The notes under the pieces: generated by a model | Told to the model about the DNA's origin: nothing | The model's input: the letters and a program-made list of their open reading frames with translations, nothing else | The model's database searches: none | In this document: piece after piece, positions 42,387-49,878 of the stretch | How the letters are laid out: each line of letters starts with the position of its first letter | Position numbering within the stretch: the stretch's first letter is position 1 | Program-made: the position numbers and the translations under genes | Assembly (NCBI RefSeq): GCF_020400825.1 | Contig: NZ_JAINVH010000012.1 | Location: 1-64,000 of the forward strand | Origin: Streptomyces sp. HPF1205 | GTDB taxonomy: Bacteria; Actinomycetota; Actinomycetes; Streptomycetales; Streptomycetaceae | DNA length: 64,000 nucleotides | Direction: 5' to 3'

Positions 42387-43322
42387 TCAGGTCATGTCAG
42401 GTTTCGGGCCGGCCGCCGCCGATGTGCGGCCCTCGGGGCGGCCGGGTGCGCTCGGTCGGCCCACGGACCTTTCGAGGAAGCGGCGGATGACGGCGACGGC
42501 GTCGTCCAAGTGGCTTTCGAGCAGGAAGTGCCCGCCGTCGAGCAGGCAGATCTCGGCGCCCGGGGCGTCCTGGGCGAAGGCCAGCGCTCCCTCGGGACCG
42601 AAGATCTCGTCGTTGCGGCCCCAGACGGCCAGCAGCGGGACCCGGCTGTCGCGCAGATAGGCGTGCAGCTTCGGGTACAGGGGGAGATTGCCGGCGTAGT
42701 CGGCGAACAGCGCGAGCTGCACCAGGTCGTTGCCCGGGCGTGACAGCAGCGCGAAATCGTGGTGCCAGGTGTCGGGGCTGACCAGGCTCTCGTCCGGCAC
42801 GCCGTGCAGGTACTGCCAGCGGGTGACCTCCAGGGTCAGCGCCTGGCGCACCCCCGCCTCGGTCCGGGCGTTCGGCTCCTGCCAGTAGGCGCGCACCGGC
42901 TTCCAGAACTCCTCGGTGAGACCCGCCTCGTAGCCGTTGCCGTTCTGGGTGATGATCGCCGTGATGGCGGCCGGGTCCGCCAGGGCCAGGCGCCAGCCGA
43001 CGGGGGCCCCGTAGTCCTGCACGTACATCGCGTACCGGGTCACCCCGAGCTGATCCAGCAGCCCCGCGGTCAGGTCCGCCAGGGCGTCGAAGGTGTAGTC
43101 GAACTCGTCCGCCGGCGGTGCGTCGGACAGGCCGAAGCCCAGGTGATCGGGGGCGATCACGTGGTACCGGTCGGCCAGCGACGGGATGAGGTTCCGGAAC
43201 ATGAACGAGCTCGTGGGGAAGCCGTGCAGCAGCACGACGGTGGGTGCGTCCTTCGGCCCGGCCTCCCGGTAGAACAGCCGCTGCCCGCGGACGGTCGCGT
43301 AACGGTGGTGGATGGTCGTCAT
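42387..43322 (-). CDS. Alpha/beta hydrolase (haloalkane dehalogenase/epoxide hydrolase-like)
   Basis: 311 residues, ATG 43322. LLHGFPTSSFMFRNLIPSLA (oxyanion HGFP), DHLGFGLSDAP, the nucleophile elbow YVQDYGAPVGWRLA with Asp rather than Ser, and LLDGGHFLLESHLDD with the catalytic His. An Asp nucleophile and HGFP point to dehalogenase or epoxide hydrolase chemistry. A 30-residue Pro/Gly tail is extra. The upstream region has two AACC/GGTT inverted repeats. Confidence 0.88.
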   Translation of the reverse strand: MTTIHHRYATVRGQRLFYREAGPKDAPTVVLLHGFPTSSFMFRNLIPSLADRYHVIAPDHLGFGLSDAPPADEFDYTFDALADLTAGLLDQLGVTRYAMYVQDYGAPVGWRLALADPAAITAIITQNGNGYEAGLTEEFWKPVRAYWQEPNARTEAGVRQALTLEVTRWQYLHGVPDESLVSPDTWHHDFALLSRPGNDLVQLALFADYAGNLPLYPKLHAYLRDSRVPLLAVWGRNDEIFGPEGALAFAQDAPGAEICLLDGGHFLLESHLDDAVAVIRRFLERSVGRPSAPGRPEGRTSAAAGPKPDMT

Positions 43323-43732: not shown

Positions 43733-44755
43733 TCAGGCGGAGGGCGCGGTCAAGGCGGTGCTGAGCCAGGTGTGGGCGGCGCCGGGGGTGGCGGGGGATC
43801 CGGAGAGCTCAGCGGTCAGGGCCCAGTAGCGGTCGACGCGGGGCTCCGAGGTGAGCAGGACGGCGAGGCGTCGGCGGAAGGCGGGGGTGTCCCGGGGAGT
43901 GTCGGGGTGGGCGCGGGCGTGGGCGGCGACGAAGCAGTCGAGCGCGTCGCCGGGGCCGGGCGGGCGGCCGGTGCGTACATGGGGCGCGGCCAGGGCGAAC
44001 GCCTCCATCAGGCCCGGATAGAGGACCTCGGGCCGCCAGCCGCTGCCGGGGCGGTGGGCGACGGGCTGGCTCTTGTCCGCCTCCGGGCGGATCTCGGCGA
44101 CCAGCGCGTGCAGCCGCGCGAAGGCCAGCACGTGCGCCGGGGCAGGGTCGGCCGGAAGCTGCGGCACGGCCCGGTCGACGATCCGGTCGGTCAGCGCGGC
44201 CGGCAGCCGCGCCGGACGCAGCCACTGCCGCCAGAAGCGGGCCAGCGGGGCCGTGGTCGGCGCCGCCGCCACCGAGGCGACCAGCCCGAGCCGCTGGGCG
44301 AGTTCACCCGGCGTCGCGGGCTCGTGCAGCAGACGCAGGGCCGCCTCCTGCCAGCGCAGCACGGCCAGCCGGGAGCCGACCTCGCGCAGTCGGCGGGCGA
44401 GGGCGTCTTCCAGGACGGAGGTCTGTGCCCGCGCGGGTACGGCCGGGGGTACGCCGGTGTGTGCGGCCGCGCGGACGCTCCCGTCCGGGCCCCCGGCCGC
44501 GTCCCGCGCCGTTTCCTGCGCCTCGTCCTGCGCCGCCAGGACGCGCTCTATCTGCGGCAGTGGCAGGTCCAGGGCGCGCAGGGAGCGGATCAGGCGCAGA
44601 CGGTCGAGCGCGCCGGGGCCGTAGAGGCGGTGGCCACCGTGGGTGCGGGCCGTCTCGGGCAGGAGGCCGCGGTCGGAGTAGAAGCGGACCGTCTTGACGG
44701 TGACACCGGCCAGGGCGGCGAGTTCGCCGATGCTGCACAACCCGTCGCGGGCCAC
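43733..44755 (-). CDS. MerR-family regulator with long effector domain
   Basis: 340 residues; GTG 44755, 7 nt after GGAGG. The N-terminal domain is typical: CSIGELAALAGVTVKTVRFY and SDRGLLPETARTHGGHRLYG, then the recognition of RLRLIRSLRALDLPLPQIER. The remaining 230 residues are a helical effector domain without a Cys metal site, so a metal sensor is unlikely. A 22-bp dyad spans the promoter between this gene and the divergent hydrolase, as expected for MerR activators that untwist an elongated spacer. Confidence 0.88.
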   Translation of the reverse strand: MARDGLCSIGELAALAGVTVKTVRFYSDRGLLPETARTHGGHRLYGPGALDRLRLIRSLRALDLPLPQIERVLAAQDEAQETARDAAGGPDGSVRAAAHTGVPPAVPARAQTSVLEDALARRLREVGSRLAVLRWQEAALRLLHEPATPGELAQRLGLVASVAAAPTTAPLARFWRQWLRPARLPAALTDRIVDRAVPQLPADPAPAHVLAFARLHALVAEIRPEADKSQPVAHRPGSGWRPEVLYPGLMEAFALAAPHVRTGRPPGPGDALDCFVAAHARAHPDTPRDTPAFRRRLAVLLTSEPRVDRYWALTAELSGSPATPGAAHTWLSTALTAPSA

Positions 44756-44759
44756 GCTT

Positions 44760-44781
44760 GAACCTCCCTCCGGGGGAGTTC
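44760..44781. promoter_or_regulatory. MerR operator dyad
   Basis: GAACCTCCC and GGGGAGTTC form an inverted repeat (GAACxTCCC type) with a TCCG centre, 5 bp upstream of the MerR start and 58 bp from the divergent hydrolase start. The layout fits a MerR-controlled divergent promoter. Confidence 0.6.
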
Positions 44782-44839
44782 CTAGCGTACCGGTGAGCAG
44801 GTCCCAACGAGGTTCACCGCAGGGTGAGGAGGGGTGTTC

Positions 44840-46447
44840 ATGACATCCACGACGGCGTTCGTACTGGTCCCGGGCGCGCATACGGGCGGCTGGGTGTGGG
44901 AGGCGGTGGCCGGGGCGCTGCGGGCGCAGGGCGCGCACGCGTACCCGGTGACGTTGACGGGGATGGGCGAGGGCCACGTGCCCGGCGGTCCGGGGCCCGC
45001 GGCCACCACGGGCCCGGGGCCGGACCTGGAGACGCACATCCAGGACATCGTGCGGCTGGTCGACTCGATCACGGCCTCCCGGGTCGTGCTCGTCGGTCAC
45101 TGCTACGGCGTCCACCCCATGCTCGCCGCCGCCGGGCGGCGCCCGGGGCGGGTCGACCGCCTCGTCTTTGTCGACACCGCCGTACCGGCGGACGGCGCCT
45201 TGCCGCTGGAGCTGCTGCCCGACCGGGCGCTGCGGCAGCGGCCGGCCGCCGAGACGGCGGGCGGCGCGACGGTGGAGGCGGCGTCGGCGCAGGACGGTGC
45301 CGCGCTGCCCTCCAGGACCCCGGCCGGCGCCGCCGCGCCCCCCGCCGACTGGGCCCGCTGGGGCAGCACCGCCGGTGTCCCCGAGGAAGCCCTGGCCGAA
45401 CTGGCCCACCGCGCCGTGCCCCAGCCCGCCCGTACTTTCACCCAGCCGCTGCGCACCGGCGAGGCCGCCCGCGGCGTGCCGACCACGGGCGTGCTGTGCA
45501 CCGCCAACGGGTCGAGCATCGCCCTCGTGCAGTCCCTGGTCCGGCTCGGTGACCCGCGACTGCGGGAACTGGCCGACCCGCGGGTGGGCTTCTTCGAACT
45601 GGACACCGGGCACTGGCCGATGCTGTCCGCCCCCGCCGAACTGGCCCGGGTGCTGCGCCGGGCGGCCGCCGGCGAGGGACACCGCCTGACGCCCGCGGGC
45701 GAGGAACCGCCCGGGCACCTGCGGCCGTTCCTGCTCGACGTACCCCAAGCGGCCGGCGCCCCCGCCGTCACCCGGGAGCGCGTCGGCAACGTCGACCTGT
45801 ACATGTCCGGGGACGGCGATCCGCGACCCGCGGTCGTGTTCGTGCACGGCGGCCCCGTTCCGGCGGGCGCCCGGCCGACTCCGCGGGACTGGCCGGTGTT
45901 CACGGGGTACGGCCGGCACGTCGCCGCGAGCGGGGGAATCGGGGTCACGTTCGACCACACGCTGCACGACCTGGGGGACTACGAACGGGCGGCCGGCGAC
46001 GTGGCGGCGGCGGTGGACCTGGTGCGGGTCCACCCGCGGGTGGACCCGGAGCGGGTCGCGCTGTGGTTCATGTCCGCGGGGGGCCTGCTCGCGGCGGACT
46101 GGCTGGCCGGACCCCCGCCGTGGCTGCGCTGCGTGGCCGCCTCCTACCCCGTGCTCGCCCCCCTCCCGGGCTGGGGCCTGGCGGACACCCGCTTCCGGCC
46201 CGCGGTCGCCGTCCGGAAGGCGGGCCGACTGCCCGTCGTGCTCACCCGGGTCGAACTGGAGCGCCCCGAAATCGCCGCCACCGTAGCGGAGTTCCTCGCC
46301 GCGGCCACCGACTGCGGCGCCGATGTCGACGTCATCGACGTGCCGGGGGCCCGCCACGGCTTCGAGTCCTTGGACCACACGGAACCGGCCCGCCGGGCGG
46401 TCGAGCGGGGGGTGCGCACGGTCCTGGCGCATCTGCGGTCCTCGTAG
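44840..46447 (+). CDS. Double alpha/beta hydrolase fusion
   Basis: 535 residues; ATG 44840 after GAGGAGGGG. Two hydrolase domains in one chain. The N-terminal one (1 to about 280) starts AFVLVPGAHTGGWVWEAVAG and has the elbow VLVGHCYGVHPM, with Cys88 at the usual Ser position, and FFELDTGHWPMLS with the His. The C-terminal one (about 290-535) has VVFVHGGPVPAG, the elbow LWFMSAGGLLAADWL with Ser412, and DVPGARHGFESLD with the His, like dienelactone hydrolases. Substrates are unknown. It is divergent from MerR with the dyad between. Confidence 0.85.
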   Translation: MTSTTAFVLVPGAHTGGWVWEAVAGALRAQGAHAYPVTLTGMGEGHVPGGPGPAATTGPGPDLETHIQDIVRLVDSITASRVVLVGHCYGVHPMLAAAGRRPGRVDRLVFVDTAVPADGALPLELLPDRALRQRPAAETAGGATVEAASAQDGAALPSRTPAGAAAPPADWARWGSTAGVPEEALAELAHRAVPQPARTFTQPLRTGEAARGVPTTGVLCTANGSSIALVQSLVRLGDPRLRELADPRVGFFELDTGHWPMLSAPAELARVLRRAAAGEGHRLTPAGEEPPGHLRPFLLDVPQAAGAPAVTRERVGNVDLYMSGDGDPRPAVVFVHGGPVPAGARPTPRDWPVFTGYGRHVAASGGIGVTFDHTLHDLGDYERAAGDVAAAVDLVRVHPRVDPERVALWFMSAGGLLAADWLAGPPPWLRCVAASYPVLAPLPGWGLADTRFRPAVAVRKAGRLPVVLTRVELERPEIAATVAEFLAAATDCGADVDVIDVPGARHGFESLDHTEPARRAVERGVRTVLAHLRSS

Positions 46448-46525: not shown

Positions 46526-47068
46526 TCAGCGCGCTCCGAGGCCGTTCAGGAAGGTGTCGACGACGAGGTCGGCGGCTTGCGCGGGGCTCAGGTGCGGCAT
46601 CTGCCGCGCGACGAGGTGCATGAGCTGCGGCAGCAGCGCGGCGGCCCAGCCCTCCGGTGACGCGGGGCGCAGCACGCCCTCGTCGGTGGCCCGTTGGAGG
46701 AAGCGGTCGACCTCGCGCCGCGACACCTCACGCCGCTCCCGGACGGCGTCGTCGGCGAGCATGCGGGTGAGGTCGACGGGCCACATGCGGTTGACCGCGA
46801 TGATGTTCTCCACGTAGCGGTGCAGGGCGACGGCGACGGGCGCCTCGCGCAGCCGCGCGTCCTCGATGGCCCGCTCGATGGCCTCCAGCCGCGACACGTA
46901 GATCGCGGCGAGCAGGTCCTCGCGGGAGGCGAACCGCCGGTACACCGTACGCCGGTCCACGCCGGCCTCGGCGGCGATGCTCGCGATGCTCGCGCCCGGA
47001 TCGGAGGCGAGCATGCGCGCCCCGGTGGTCAGGACCGCTTCCAGGTTGCGCGCCGCGTCAGCTCTCAC
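46526..47068 (-). CDS. TetR-family regulator
   Basis: 180 residues, GTG 47068. HTH: NLEAVLTTGARMLASDPGAS, IASIAAEAGVDRRTVYRRFA, SREDLLAAIY. The ligand domain is ordinary. Its start overlaps the end of the CGNR gene by 11 bp on the same strand, so the two regulators are co-transcribed and coupled. The target is unknown. Confidence 0.9.
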   Translation of the reverse strand: MRADAARNLEAVLTTGARMLASDPGASIASIAAEAGVDRRTVYRRFASREDLLAAIYVSRLEAIERAIEDARLREAPVAVALHRYVENIIAVNRMWPVDLTRMLADDAVRERREVSRREVDRFLQRATDEGVLRPASPEGWAAALLPQLMHLVARQMPHLSPAQAADLVVDTFLNGLGAR

Positions 47069-47717
47069 GCGGCTCAGTGTAGTCGGCGTGAAACATCAGG
47101 CGTCTACTGTCCCGCCGATGTGGCGCGGTGGACGGCACGCACCCGAAGGACCGCGCCCCCCAGGCACCGGCGGGCGTGTTCTTCTTGCGGGCGCGGTAGG
47201 CGGCGGCTTTGATCTTGTTTCCGCAGGATTCCATGCCGCACCATTGGCGGCGCATGCCGCGGGAGCGGTCGATGTAGACGCGGGTGCATTCGGGGTTGCT
47301 GCATTCCTTGAGGAGGGGTACGTCGGGTCCGCTGAGGAGTTCGACGGCCTGGCGGGCGACGGTGGCCAGTGCTTCTTCCGGTGTGGCCGAGGTGCGGCGG
47401 CCGTTCGGGGTGAGCTGCGGTACGGCGGCGGGTTTGCGGGCCGCGGCGTTGAGCACGTCCAGGGCCCGCGGCTGGTAGTCCTCGCCGAGTCGGCGGGCGG
47501 TGACCAGGCTGTAGATGGCTTCTCGTACGGTCACTGCCTGGTCGACGTCCGCCTGGCGGCTGGGGGCGAGTGCGTCGACGATTCCGGCTTCCAGGTACCA
47601 GGCGTCCAGCCGGTCCGGTGCCGCGAACATCTCGAAGCGCGTCGATCGCCTGGCCCGCAGGGTCGCGGCGAAGTCCAGCGCCGGGTGGTCGCAGACGAAG
47701 ACATGGGTGAGATTCAT
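47058..47717 (-). CDS. CGNR zinc-finger (ABATE) regulator
   Basis: 219 residues, ATG 47717. ABATE domain: VCDHPALDFAATLRARRSTR and AVTVREAIYSLVTARRLGED. The zinc finger is CSNPECTRVYIDRS and RQWCGMESCGNKIKAAAYRA, with Lys in place of the final Arg of CGNR. The C-terminal 40 residues after the finger look extra and include the overlap with TetR, so the true stop region may have been extended. It is the first gene of a two-regulator operon. Confidence 0.85.
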   Translation of the reverse strand: MNLTHVFVCDHPALDFAATLRARRSTRFEMFAAPDRLDAWYLEAGIVDALAPSRQADVDQAVTVREAIYSLVTARRLGEDYQPRALDVLNAAARKPAAVPQLTPNGRRTSATPEEALATVARQAVELLSGPDVPLLKECSNPECTRVYIDRSRGMRRQWCGMESCGNKIKAAAYRARKKNTPAGAWGARSFGCVPSTAPHRRDSRRLMFHADYTEPRES

Positions 47718-47780: not shown

Positions 47781-48572
47781 TCACCGGCGCGCGGCCCTGG
47801 GCTCGGGCCGGCCCGAGGCGCGGCCCTGGGCGGTCCCGCCCTCGTCGGGCCCTTCTGACCCGCCGGGCTCGCCTGGCTCGTCCGCAGCGTCGAGCGTGTC
47901 GTCGAGCTCGTCGAACTCGTCGAGCCACTGGGGGTGGTGGCGCCGCGCCCACGCGCGGCTGACGAAGCCGGTGCGCATGCCCGGCGCCGTCTCCGGGTCC
48001 GCGTAGGCCTTCCGGACGTGGCCGGCCAGGACGATCACGATCGCCCAGGCGAGGAAGTCGTGGATGAAGATCGCGCTGGTGCGGGAGACGGAAGGCAGCA
48101 GGCCCATGAACCACATGAGCAGGCCGGTGGCCATCATCACCAGCACCGCGCCGGCGATCCAGCCCGCGTAGAGCTTCTGGCCGGCGTTGAACTTGCCCGC
48201 CGGACGCACCCGCGGCGAGCGCGTACGCCTCAGGGCGGCTCGCAGCCACTGCCGGTCGTACGGCGCGAAGCGGTTCAGCCGCCGCAGGTCCGCCCGGAAG
48301 GCGGGGGAGAGCAGGCCGAGGAGGGCCGGCAGCGGCAGCGCGATGCCCGACCACTCGTGCACGGTGACCATCAGGGTCCGCCGCCCGACGAGCTGGGCGA
48401 GCGGCCCCAGGTACAGGCAGGCCGCGGTGACCAGGCACAGCAGCATCAGCAGGCCGGTGCTCCGGTGCACCATGCGCTCGGCCCGGCTGAACCGCCGGAT
48501 CCGGCCCGCGTGTTCAGCCCTGGACGCCGCCGTCGTTCTTGTCCGCTCCGTCGAGCCAGCCGTCGATGTCAT
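47781..48572 (-). CDS. Membrane cytochrome b partner of the molybdopterin enzyme
   Basis: About 263 residues from ATG 48572, which overlaps the upstream gene by 58 bp; a later ATG near 48473 is possible. Four membrane helices: TGLLMLLCLVTAACLYLGPL, WSGIALPLPALLGLLS, LYAGWIAGAVLVMMATGLLM and FIHDFLAWAIVIVLAGHVRK. His residues in MVHRSTG, VTVHEWSG, FIHDF and AGHVR are placed like the haem ligands of cytochrome b561/formate-dehydrogenase gamma proteins. It would pass electrons to or from the Tat-exported oxidoreductase. The Asp/Glu/Gly-rich tail is low-complexity. Confidence 0.85.
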   Translation of the reverse strand: MTSTAGSTERTRTTAASRAEHAGRIRRFSRAERMVHRSTGLLMLLCLVTAACLYLGPLAQLVGRRTLMVTVHEWSGIALPLPALLGLLSPAFRADLRRLNRFAPYDRQWLRAALRRTRSPRVRPAGKFNAGQKLYAGWIAGAVLVMMATGLLMWFMGLLPSVSRTSAIFIHDFLAWAIVIVLAGHVRKAYADPETAPGMRTGFVSRAWARRHHPQWLDEFDELDDTLDAADEPGEPGGSEGPDEGGTAQGRASGRPEPRAARR

Positions 48573-49242
48573 AACCACGCTCCTCCCAGTACCCGGGGAC
48601 GACCGTGTCGGTGACCGAGATGCCGGACAGCCACTTGGCCGACTTGTAGAAGTACATCGGGGCCGCGTACAACCGCACCGGACCGCCGTGCGCATGGCTG
48701 ATCGGCTTGTCCTGCATCTGCAGGGCCACCAGCATGTCCGGCCGGCGGGCCTGGTCCAGGGTGAGGTTCTCGGAGTAGGCCCCGTCGAAACAGGTGAAGC
48801 GCAGCGCCCTGCCCCGCGGGCGCACACCCACCGCGTCCAGCAGGTCCGACAGCCTCACCCCGGTGAAGGGCGTGTTCGGTACCCGCCACCCGTCCGTGCA
48901 CTGCACGTCGTGCACCACCCGCGTCTGCGGCATCGCCCGCAGGTCGGCCAGCCGCAGCGTCATCGGCCTGTCGACCAGTCCGGAGATCCGCAGCGTGTAG
49001 TCCGTCTCGTCCTTGTGCGGTACGGACCCGACGACGCTGTAGTAGCGGAAGCCGCCCGGATTCGGCAGCAGGCCGCTGAGACCCGTCGGGTCGGCCTGCG
49101 AGGCCTTGGCCAAGAACGCGTCCCAGCCGCGCTGCAGGGGCGGCGCGGCGGCGAGCCCCGCCACCCCGAGCCCCAGCATGCCCAGCATCGCCCGCCGCCC
49201 TACCGGCGGCCCCTCGGCTCCTGCCTTCGGCCGGTCTGCCAT
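48514..49242 (-). CDS. Tat-exported molybdopterin-dependent oxidoreductase (sulfite-oxidase/YedY fold)
   Basis: 242 residues, ATG 49242. A twin-arginine signal (GRRAMLGMLGLGVAGLAAAP) indicates export folded with cofactor. The core has DYTLRISGLVDRPMTLRLAD, VVHDVQCTDGWRVPNTPFTG with the Mo-coordinating Cys, RFTCFDGAYSENLTLDQA, and HAHGGPVRLYAAPMYFYKSA with KWLSGISVTD. This is the sulfite-oxidase-like fold of YedY/MsrP relatives. The substrate is unknown; repair of oxidised methionine is one option. Its cytochrome b partner follows with overlap. Confidence 0.9.
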   Translation of the reverse strand: MADRPKAGAEGPPVGRRAMLGMLGLGVAGLAAAPPLQRGWDAFLAKASQADPTGLSGLLPNPGGFRYYSVVGSVPHKDETDYTLRISGLVDRPMTLRLADLRAMPQTRVVHDVQCTDGWRVPNTPFTGVRLSDLLDAVGVRPRGRALRFTCFDGAYSENLTLDQARRPDMLVALQMQDKPISHAHGGPVRLYAAPMYFYKSAKWLSGISVTDTVVPGYWEERGYDIDGWLDGADKNDGGVQG

Positions 49243-49878
49243 CGTCCGCGCTCCTTCCCGGGCCCTGGTGAGCCACATGTGCTCAACGGGCGGACATTCC
49301 TCGTGAGCGCCCGTGCCGCACCGCGCGACACCATGACAGTCACTTATTGAACTGGTGACGAGTATTGGCTCTCGCGGGCCGGGCGTCAAGGCGGGTCCGC
49401 ACCCGCTCCACCTCCCGAGCAGCCGAAACGCCCGTCGGCGGGCCGACGGGCGCCTGCCGGCGGCAGCCGCACGGCACCGCGGTCACCGAACGGGCACACC
49501 CGAGGGGGTCGGGCCGGGGGAGGACCGCGCGGACGCCGCGACGTGTCGTGCGCGATGCAGTCGAATGGCTTAGGCGTGCGACGCCGGGCGCGGGTCCGTG
49601 GCGCGCCCCACAGCGCCGAATCGGTTCCTGACCAGCCACTTCCCGCGGCAAAGGCCGCAATGCGCCCGGCCGTTCGCCCTCGGTCGCCGGGCTGCGCGGC
49701 AGACCGCCGGCGGACCGTCATGTGACGGATGCCACCGGCCCGGCCCGTGGGCGAGGGTGTGGCCATGGCCGCCCACGCGGCCCGTACGACACGTCAAGCA
49801 CATGACGCATATGAAGCCGTGAAGCATGTGAACACATGTCTTCGGCAACGGCAGTTCCGTCCCAGGAAGGGGTTTTTC
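49243..49878. other. 636-bp divergent intergenic region with CACATG/CATGTG elements
   Basis: It lies between the molybdopterin-enzyme gene and the secreted esterase. No gene is supported. The motif CATGTG/CACATG recurs: a palindrome CACATGTG at 49274-49281, a copy near 49718, and CATGTG-AA-CACATG at 49825-49838, 40 bp before the esterase start. A possible minus-strand promoter segment (TTATTGAACTGG) is near 49344. Confidence 0.5.
49825..49838. promoter_or_regulatory. Dyad CATGTG-AA-CACATG upstream of the esterase
   Basis: A perfect 6-bp-arm inverted repeat 41 bp before the GTG of the secreted esterase; the same half-site occurs at two other places in this intergenic region. Confidence 0.45.

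Follow-up and report, generated by a model that had tools for sequence, protein, structure and literature searches.

A conserved fusion of two alpha/beta hydrolase domains beside a dedicated MerR regulator in Streptomyces sp. HPF1205 and its relatives, with loss of the nucleophile serine in the first domain

The hydrolase gene and its surroundings

Analysis of a 64,000-nt stretch of the Streptomyces sp. HPF1205 genome (contig NZ_JAINVH010000012.1, positions 1 to 64,000; hereafter the window) located a fused two-domain alpha/beta hydrolase gene on the plus strand at 44840..46447. The gene encodes 535 aa in an open frame that runs from an ATG start to the stop codon, which is included in the coordinates, and a likely ribosome-binding site, GAGGAGG (44826..44832, +), lies 7 nt 5' of the ATG. 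The sequence-only reading had recognized two hydrolase motif sets in this single frame, GHCYG with Cys88 and MSAGG with Ser412, and this architecture was borne out by Pfam, which matched Abhydrolase_6 at aa 7-270 (8.3e-18, above the cut-off) and both DLH (2.6e-5) and Peptidase_S9 (3.1e-5) in the second half, again above the cut-offs. AlphaFold2 likewise predicted two alpha/beta-hydrolase folds for the window protein (mean pLDDT 80.8 with 26 aligned sequences), and the model of a homologue (L080) reached a mean pLDDT of 84.5. Domain 1 (aa 1-287; 44840..45700, +) was delimited on the basis of Pfam, the AlphaFold2 model, a fold match and the survey of position 88 described below, and comprises an Abhydrolase_6 fold that has lost its nucleophile Ser. 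Domain 2 (aa 309-535; 45764..46444, +), for which the fold match covers aa 308-535, is a BD-FAE/DLH/S9-like serine hydrolase fold with weak Pfam matches to BD-FAE, DLH and Peptidase_S9; both domain borders are approximate. Among 77 members of the family (63 fused, 14 unfused), the profile matches of domain 1 at E 0.001 included Abhydrolase_6/_1, with PF12697 (Abhydrolase_6) present in 71.

Divergently oriented, on the minus strand at 43733..44755, lies the gene for a 340-aa MerR-family regulator (GTG start, stop included; PF13411, MerR_1, 1.2e-18), for which no Pfam or PDB match was obtained after approximately residue 90 at the thresholds used. The gap between the two genes contains a MerR-type promoter/operator facing the hydrolase, in which TTGAAC and TAGCGT are separated by a 19-bp dyad spacer (44758..44788, +). 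The 22-bp dyad that had been noted next to a divergent MerR gene was recovered inside this promoter as an imperfect palindrome (44760-44781), and similar elements recur at homologues of the fusion.

Four neighbouring genes were considered as members of a wider operon: a single-domain alpha/beta hydrolase (42387-43322, -) with haloalkane-dehalogenase-like profile matches below the cut-offs, a TetR regulator (46526-47068, -) and an ABATE/CGNR zinc-finger regulator (47058-47717, -), both assigned by Pfam and lying downstream of and convergent with the fused hydrolase, and a gene at 48514-49389. A search at E 1e-20 and coverage >60%, which included the 53 loci L031-L083 with flanks of mostly 6-8 kb (some shortened by contig ends), revealed no counterpart of any of the four beside the fusion in loci L031 and above, and a wider operon was therefore rejected. 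In the neighbouring single-domain hydrolase the elbow reads QDYG and puts an Asp at the nucleophile position. A role in anti-phage defence was also rejected, as the fused hydrolase gave no PADLOC match at E 0.01; the MerR matched a single PADLOC model, the 60-residue mad1, which was taken as a generic HTH match.

Distribution of the fusion and its regulatory element

Genome searches for homologues with the same fusion yielded 89 distinct single-frame entries containing both domains, window included, after removal of nine duplicates defined by identical last 200 residues. The 88 further entries rule out a sequencing error as the origin of the fusion, and the joined arrangement described by the sequence-only reading can be regarded as genuine. 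Domain 1 was complete enough to count in 83 of them, which together with the window form the 84 rows underlying the counts below. The remaining five of the 89 rows (L144, L079, L044, L096, L095) were left out because their domain-1 part was cut, lay in another frame or was poorly aligned; the motif residue is still visible in three of them, as Cys in L044 and as Gly in L079 and L095. In L044 and L079, domain 1 is divided between two reading frames, reflecting frameshifts or assembly errors. The entry L082, which is ended by a contig end, has Gly at position 88.

In an evenly drawn sample of 150 genomes from the family of the window, 68 were matched at E 1e-40, two of which (G320 and G383) have a single-domain match alone. 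Across 394 genomes of the class, 30 were matched at E 1e-30; two-domain matches were restricted to the window's own family, and the other families carry domain-1-like or domain-2-like genes singly. A domain-1 tree of the 84 fused proteins and 36 unfused relatives, the latter being the nearest ones retrieved, set all fused proteins apart by a single branch with an SH-aLRT of 91, which is not among the well-supported branches (hereafter starred), and gave long-branch warnings for L122 and three others. As the fused proteins lie on one side of this branch, a single fusion event would be the simplest reading of the tree. No title dealing with the fusion or its MerR was found in the literature searched (open-licence PMC; titles and abstract starts), although such work may exist.

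A relative of the MerR was divergently encoded within 500 bp in 75 of the 84 fusion loci, window included. Five further loci (L146-L149, L152) have a MerR of the same group at a distance of 2.6-4.8 kb with other genes intervening, three (L130, L138, L142) have no close MerR nearby, their genomes having less closely related copies elsewhere (41-45% over the C-terminal part), and the 17.5-kb locus L070 contains no MerR of this group. The operator is kept in eight of these nine loci without an adjacent MerR, L142 being the one without a match to the search pattern. In five relatives, L168-L172, intervening genes separate the fused hydrolase from the MerR. Four of these (L168-L171) have a 280-aa protein there that resembles a helix-turn-helix regulator by eye, a 174-aa partner also being listed in two of the four, and L172 has different genes in this place; throughout L168-L172 the operator remains next to the hydrolase.

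Elements similar to the window operator lie upstream of the homologues in the fusion loci. The exact operator pattern, TTGAAYCTCC-N6-GGGAGTTC, was present in 18 of 61 genomes, once each and just upstream of the fusion gene, and a reversed control pattern had no match in the same 61 genomes. The fusion itself is carried by 19 of the 61; in the nineteenth genome (G001, locus L033) the right arm reads GAGCTC. The recurrence of similar elements at homologues, together with exact matches in 18 genomes and none for the control, leads to the conclusion that the dyad is not due to chance. As the exact pattern occurs at a single site per genome and nowhere else in the 61 genomes, a wider regulon was rejected and the MerR, judged by this pattern, seems to serve one promoter. 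Overall, these results support the view that the fusion of two hydrolases beside a dedicated MerR is real and conserved.

Active-site positions of the two domains

The domain-2 nucleophile Ser412 in the motif MSAGG (codon at 46073..46075, +) was found in all 83 readable rows of the fused alignment, one row showing X, and the catalytic histidine His506 (46355..46357, +) in 83 of 84. Within the oxyanion motif HGGP, His336 is present in 83 of 84 rows and Gly337, Gly338 and Pro339 are present in all 84. Four stand-alone homologues (L103, L104, L106, L048) are 51-60% identical to domain 2 and differ from the window fusion in being encoded by genes of their own in other families, where the surrounding 12.7-kb stretches gave no match to domain 1 or to the MerR group of the fusion; Ser and the oxyanion GGP are invariant across 46 aligned domain-2 rows that include these four. 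By its conserved residues, domain 2 (Ser412-His506) is probably the hydrolytic half of the protein, an esterase.

The nucleophile-elbow position of domain 1, occupied in the window by Cys88 (codon TGC, 45101..45103, +; motif GHCYG), was Gly in 31, Asp in 27, Cys in 24 and Glu in two of the 84 fused proteins, window included, and Ser in none, versus Ser88 combined with Gly12 in all 36 unfused relatives examined. The codons used (GAC 27, TGC 22, TGT 2, GGC 22, GGG 6, GGT 3, GAG 2) are TGC or GGC in 44 of the 84 genes, one base from the Ser codon AGC, yet Ser is absent. A tree of the 84 rows, built leaving out the columns concerned, required 21 changes at position 88 on the best topology, none of them to Ser. 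The starred branches (24 of 81) alone forced five changes for Asp88, one each for Cys88 and Glu88, and six each for Gly88 with and without an acid at position 12. The sequence-only reading had assigned the nucleophile role in domain 1 to Cys88. Since Cys is not conserved across the fused family, with Gly, Asp or Glu in its place in 60 of the 84 proteins and mostly the same type of regulator and operator beside these variants too, this assignment is not supported and a conserved Cys nucleophile is ruled out. Going by the alignment, Cys88 is one of several replacements for the lost Ser.

Other residues of domain 1 are strictly maintained: His87, Cys220, Gly224, Gly257, His258 and Trp259 were identical in 84 of 84 fused proteins, His258 (codon at 45611..45613, +) being the probable catalytic histidine. 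Asp112 (45173..45175, +), the probable catalytic acid after strand 6, was found in 83 of 84 fused proteins and in 35 of the 36 unfused relatives, the last of which has Glu. At the strand-7 position 223, which aligns with an Asp of 8hfw, 60 of the 84 fused proteins carry Asn. As the near unfused Ser relatives also have no acid on strand 7 and do have Asp112, the latter appears the likelier acid partner of His258. Simple Nei-Gojobori counting on 51 pairs that are >78% identical and share sequences gave, for the 40 closest pairs, a median dN/dS of 0.42 in domain 1 against 0.30 in domain 2, values that are probably inflated in these GC-rich genomes. Domain 1 is thus under purifying selection, weaker than that acting on domain 2; its faster evolution would equally fit a domain under relaxed constraint or one whose role is purely structural.

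A second position changes in step with position 88. At the oxyanion-loop position 12, where the window protein has Gly12 (codon at 44873..44875, +), an acid (Glu 16, Asp 6) was found in 22 of the 31 Gly88 proteins and in none of the 53 others. Cys, Asp or Glu therefore stands at position 88 or 12 in 75 of the 84 fused proteins and at both in none. In the other nine, which combine Gly88 with Gly12, inspection of the listing by eye revealed no third acid elsewhere; an ionisable side chain at 88 or 12 is thus not obligatory. A Pagel test of dependence between the two positions, run with our own code on IQ-TREE and FastTree topologies under three root settings, gave likelihood ratios of 47-53 at 4 degrees of freedom, with several fits reaching boundary rates. 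For the acid at position 12 against 32 control columns drawn at random from 221 variable columns, the ratio was at most 11.8; ten of these control fits were slightly negative, down to -4.7, and the optimisation is accordingly rough. A stricter independent-pairs test on the starred branches was not significant (6 pairs, on average 3.2 in the same direction and 0 opposed, median p 0.25).

Proposed function and comparison with known systems

With a probability of roughly 0.6, we favour a reading in which a MerR-induced domain-2 esterase is fused to a nucleophile-less fold that would perform non-hydrolytic catalysis or ligand binding. The MerR would bind its operator, which by the exact pattern is apparently the sole copy per genome, and in response to a small molecule would re-align the 19-bp-spaced promoter and switch on the fused hydrolase, an induction that we infer from the promoter layout and the behaviour of the MerR family. 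Domain 2 would then cleave an ester-like bond through Ser412 and His506, and domain 1, as a descendant of a serine hydrolase, would act on or hold the same compound with no covalent intermediate on a serine. It could do so by general acid-base chemistry, for which the decarboxylase methylketone synthase 1 (MKS1) provides an example with this fold, or by keeping the ligand in place for domain 2, a pure binding role being nearly as likely as catalysis. The groups at hand would be His258 and Asp112, together with Cys, Asp or Glu at position 88 or, in the Gly88 proteins, mostly Glu or Asp at position 12.

A more specific version can be put forward tentatively. After one fusion, Ser may have been given up for good in favour of a noncovalent reaction that uses an ionisable group either at the elbow (Cys, Asp or Glu) or in the oxyanion loop (Glu or Asp at position 12), with hydrolysis left to the attached serine esterase. 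The active site would then have been rewired repeatedly under one conserved MerR switch, with 21 changes on the best tree and fewer on firm branches.

Among the alternatives, a noncatalytic domain 1, i.e. a pseudo-hydrolase that serves the domain-2 esterase as a ligand-binding, lid, stabilising or oligomerisation domain, deserves serious consideration even if we hold it to be the less probable case. Such a role would agree with the lower constraint on domain 1, with the nine proteins that have neither a candidate nucleophile nor an acid at positions 88 and 12, and with Ser in 36 of 36 unfused relatives examined versus 0 of 84 fused proteins. However, the retention of His258, Cys220 and Trp259 in every fused protein and of Asp112 in all except one is more than a scaffold requires, and so is the covariation of positions 88 and 12 within the active site.

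Covalent catalysis by domain 1 is harder to reconcile with the data in either of the forms considered. A two-step hydrolase, in which a DLH-like Cys88 would act before the Ser of domain 2, can point to the location of Cys88 at the nucleophile elbow, to the conserved His258 and Asp112, and to the occurrence of Cys in 24 of the 84 proteins, including a starred clade of seven from the window's own genus. Against this, the majority of the family has another residue beside mostly the same regulator and operator type, the window protein itself has as its partner in the tree L129, which carries Gly88 (support 87, on a branch that is not starred), and domain 1 matches Abhydrolase_6, not DLH. That a Cys nucleophile performs a first step is hence unlikely for the family and would be conjectural for the window protein; a Cys-His-Asp triad may occur in the 24 Cys88 proteins, and the fusion may still be a two-step enzyme acting on one induced substrate. 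We are similarly doubtful of a nucleophile that differs by clade, namely Asp or Glu88 as in epoxide hydrolases and haloalkane dehalogenases, a DLH-like Cys88, or the acid at position 12 in the Gly88 clade. The mutually exclusive presence of Cys, Asp or Glu at the two positions in 75 proteins and the likeness of the Asp88 elbow to GH-D-x-G, the Asp-nucleophile motif of epoxide hydrolases, speak for such switching, but nine proteins have no such residue, 21 switches of nucleophile on the best tree would have taken place under one conserved regulator type, and a residue of the oxyanion loop seems poorly placed for in-line attack. Finally, a decaying domain 1 in which position 88 is free to drift for lack of function would explain the variability of this position and the higher dN/dS, but is already disfavoured and very improbable in view of a dN/dS well below 1, many invariant domain-1 residues, 84 open frames, the absence of Ser although 44 of 84 codons are a single base from it, and the covariation with position 12.

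Loss of the hydrolase nucleophile is already known from single cases such as MKS1. The fused family adds 84 natural versions, set in largely similar regulatory surroundings, that carry Gly, Asp, Cys or Glu versus Ser in 36 of 36 unfused relatives examined, and a second active-site position changes along with them. This is an unusually rich collection of naturally replaced active-site residues, on which one can test how an alpha/beta hydrolase turns into a non-hydrolase. The lost Ser of domain 1 hints at unusual chemistry or a binding role, and a MerR with its exact operator pattern at one promoter per genome offers a direct route to the inducer and from there to the substrate.

The preferred reading, an induced esterase joined to a nucleophile-less partner, can be set against several known systems. 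The closest listed solved folds for domain 1 include 8hfw, 7wwf, SABP2, MKS1 (3sty, 3stt), hydroxynitrile lyases and PytH (Z ~21-24 for the last four), and those for domain 2 include TTL, PsEst3 and a ferulic acid esterase, with Z in the 20-24 range over both domains. HSL-type esterases (EstDL136, brefeldin A esterase) gave the best Foldseek rows for the whole window model, and the ferulic acid esterase 7z2u and PsEst3 align to domain 2 with Z ~21; at ~15-22% identity to the window protein, HSL-type and ferulic acid esterases share the fold and do not imply the substrate. DLH (PF01738) matches domain 2 of the window weakly, just above the cut-off, and is absent from the four families matched by domain 1 at E 0.001 in the 77 members. 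Whereas the nucleophile of classical DLH is a Cys, domain 2 has Ser. The Asp elbow of epoxide hydrolases and haloalkane dehalogenases differs from the Cys88 of the window protein and has its equivalent in the 27 fused proteins with Asp at this position.

SABP2 and related plant methylesterases as well as hydroxynitrile lyases, which are among the closest listed domain-1 folds, were also found by the profile search. The triad of hydroxynitrile lyases has a Ser, and in contrast to these SABP2/MES-HNL-type hydrolases, the Ser of the GxSxG motif is absent from domain 1 in 84 of 84 fused proteins. The review PMC11644291 gives Ser-His-Asp/Glu as the typical triad of the superfamily. A different kind of relative is found in Streptomyces jumonjinensis (L083:6907-8786), where a homologue of domain 1 neighbours a MerR gene of the fusion's group and a similar dyad lies between the two; it differs from the fusion in having Ser88 and Gly12 and in the absence of domain 2 from its 12-kb locus. 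This may represent a possible pre-fusion arrangement; the nearest unfused relative of the fused clade in the domain-1 tree is L102 (support 90), not L083.

MKS1, a single-domain protein that is not known to be accompanied by a MerR, shares the fold of domain 1 (3stt, 3sty) at ~19-20% identity over the match. As in MKS1, the Ser at the nucleophile place has been lost from domain 1 and the His has been kept; the differences are that MKS1 is a plant protein with Ala at the nucleophile place and that domain 1 offers a series of Cys, Asp, Gly and Glu. In tomato MKS1, according to the same review (PMC11644291), Ser-His-Asp has become Ala-His-Asn and the enzyme decarboxylates 3-keto acids. The entry 3sty is, by its title, the T18A mutant of MKS1, and arithmetic on the alignment ends suggests that Thr18 corresponds to position 12 of domain 1, the place where most Gly88 proteins carry Glu or Asp. 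By analogy, we regard MKS1 as the best precedent for domain 1 on the same fold, and a putative decarboxylase-like domain would combine naturally with an esterase.
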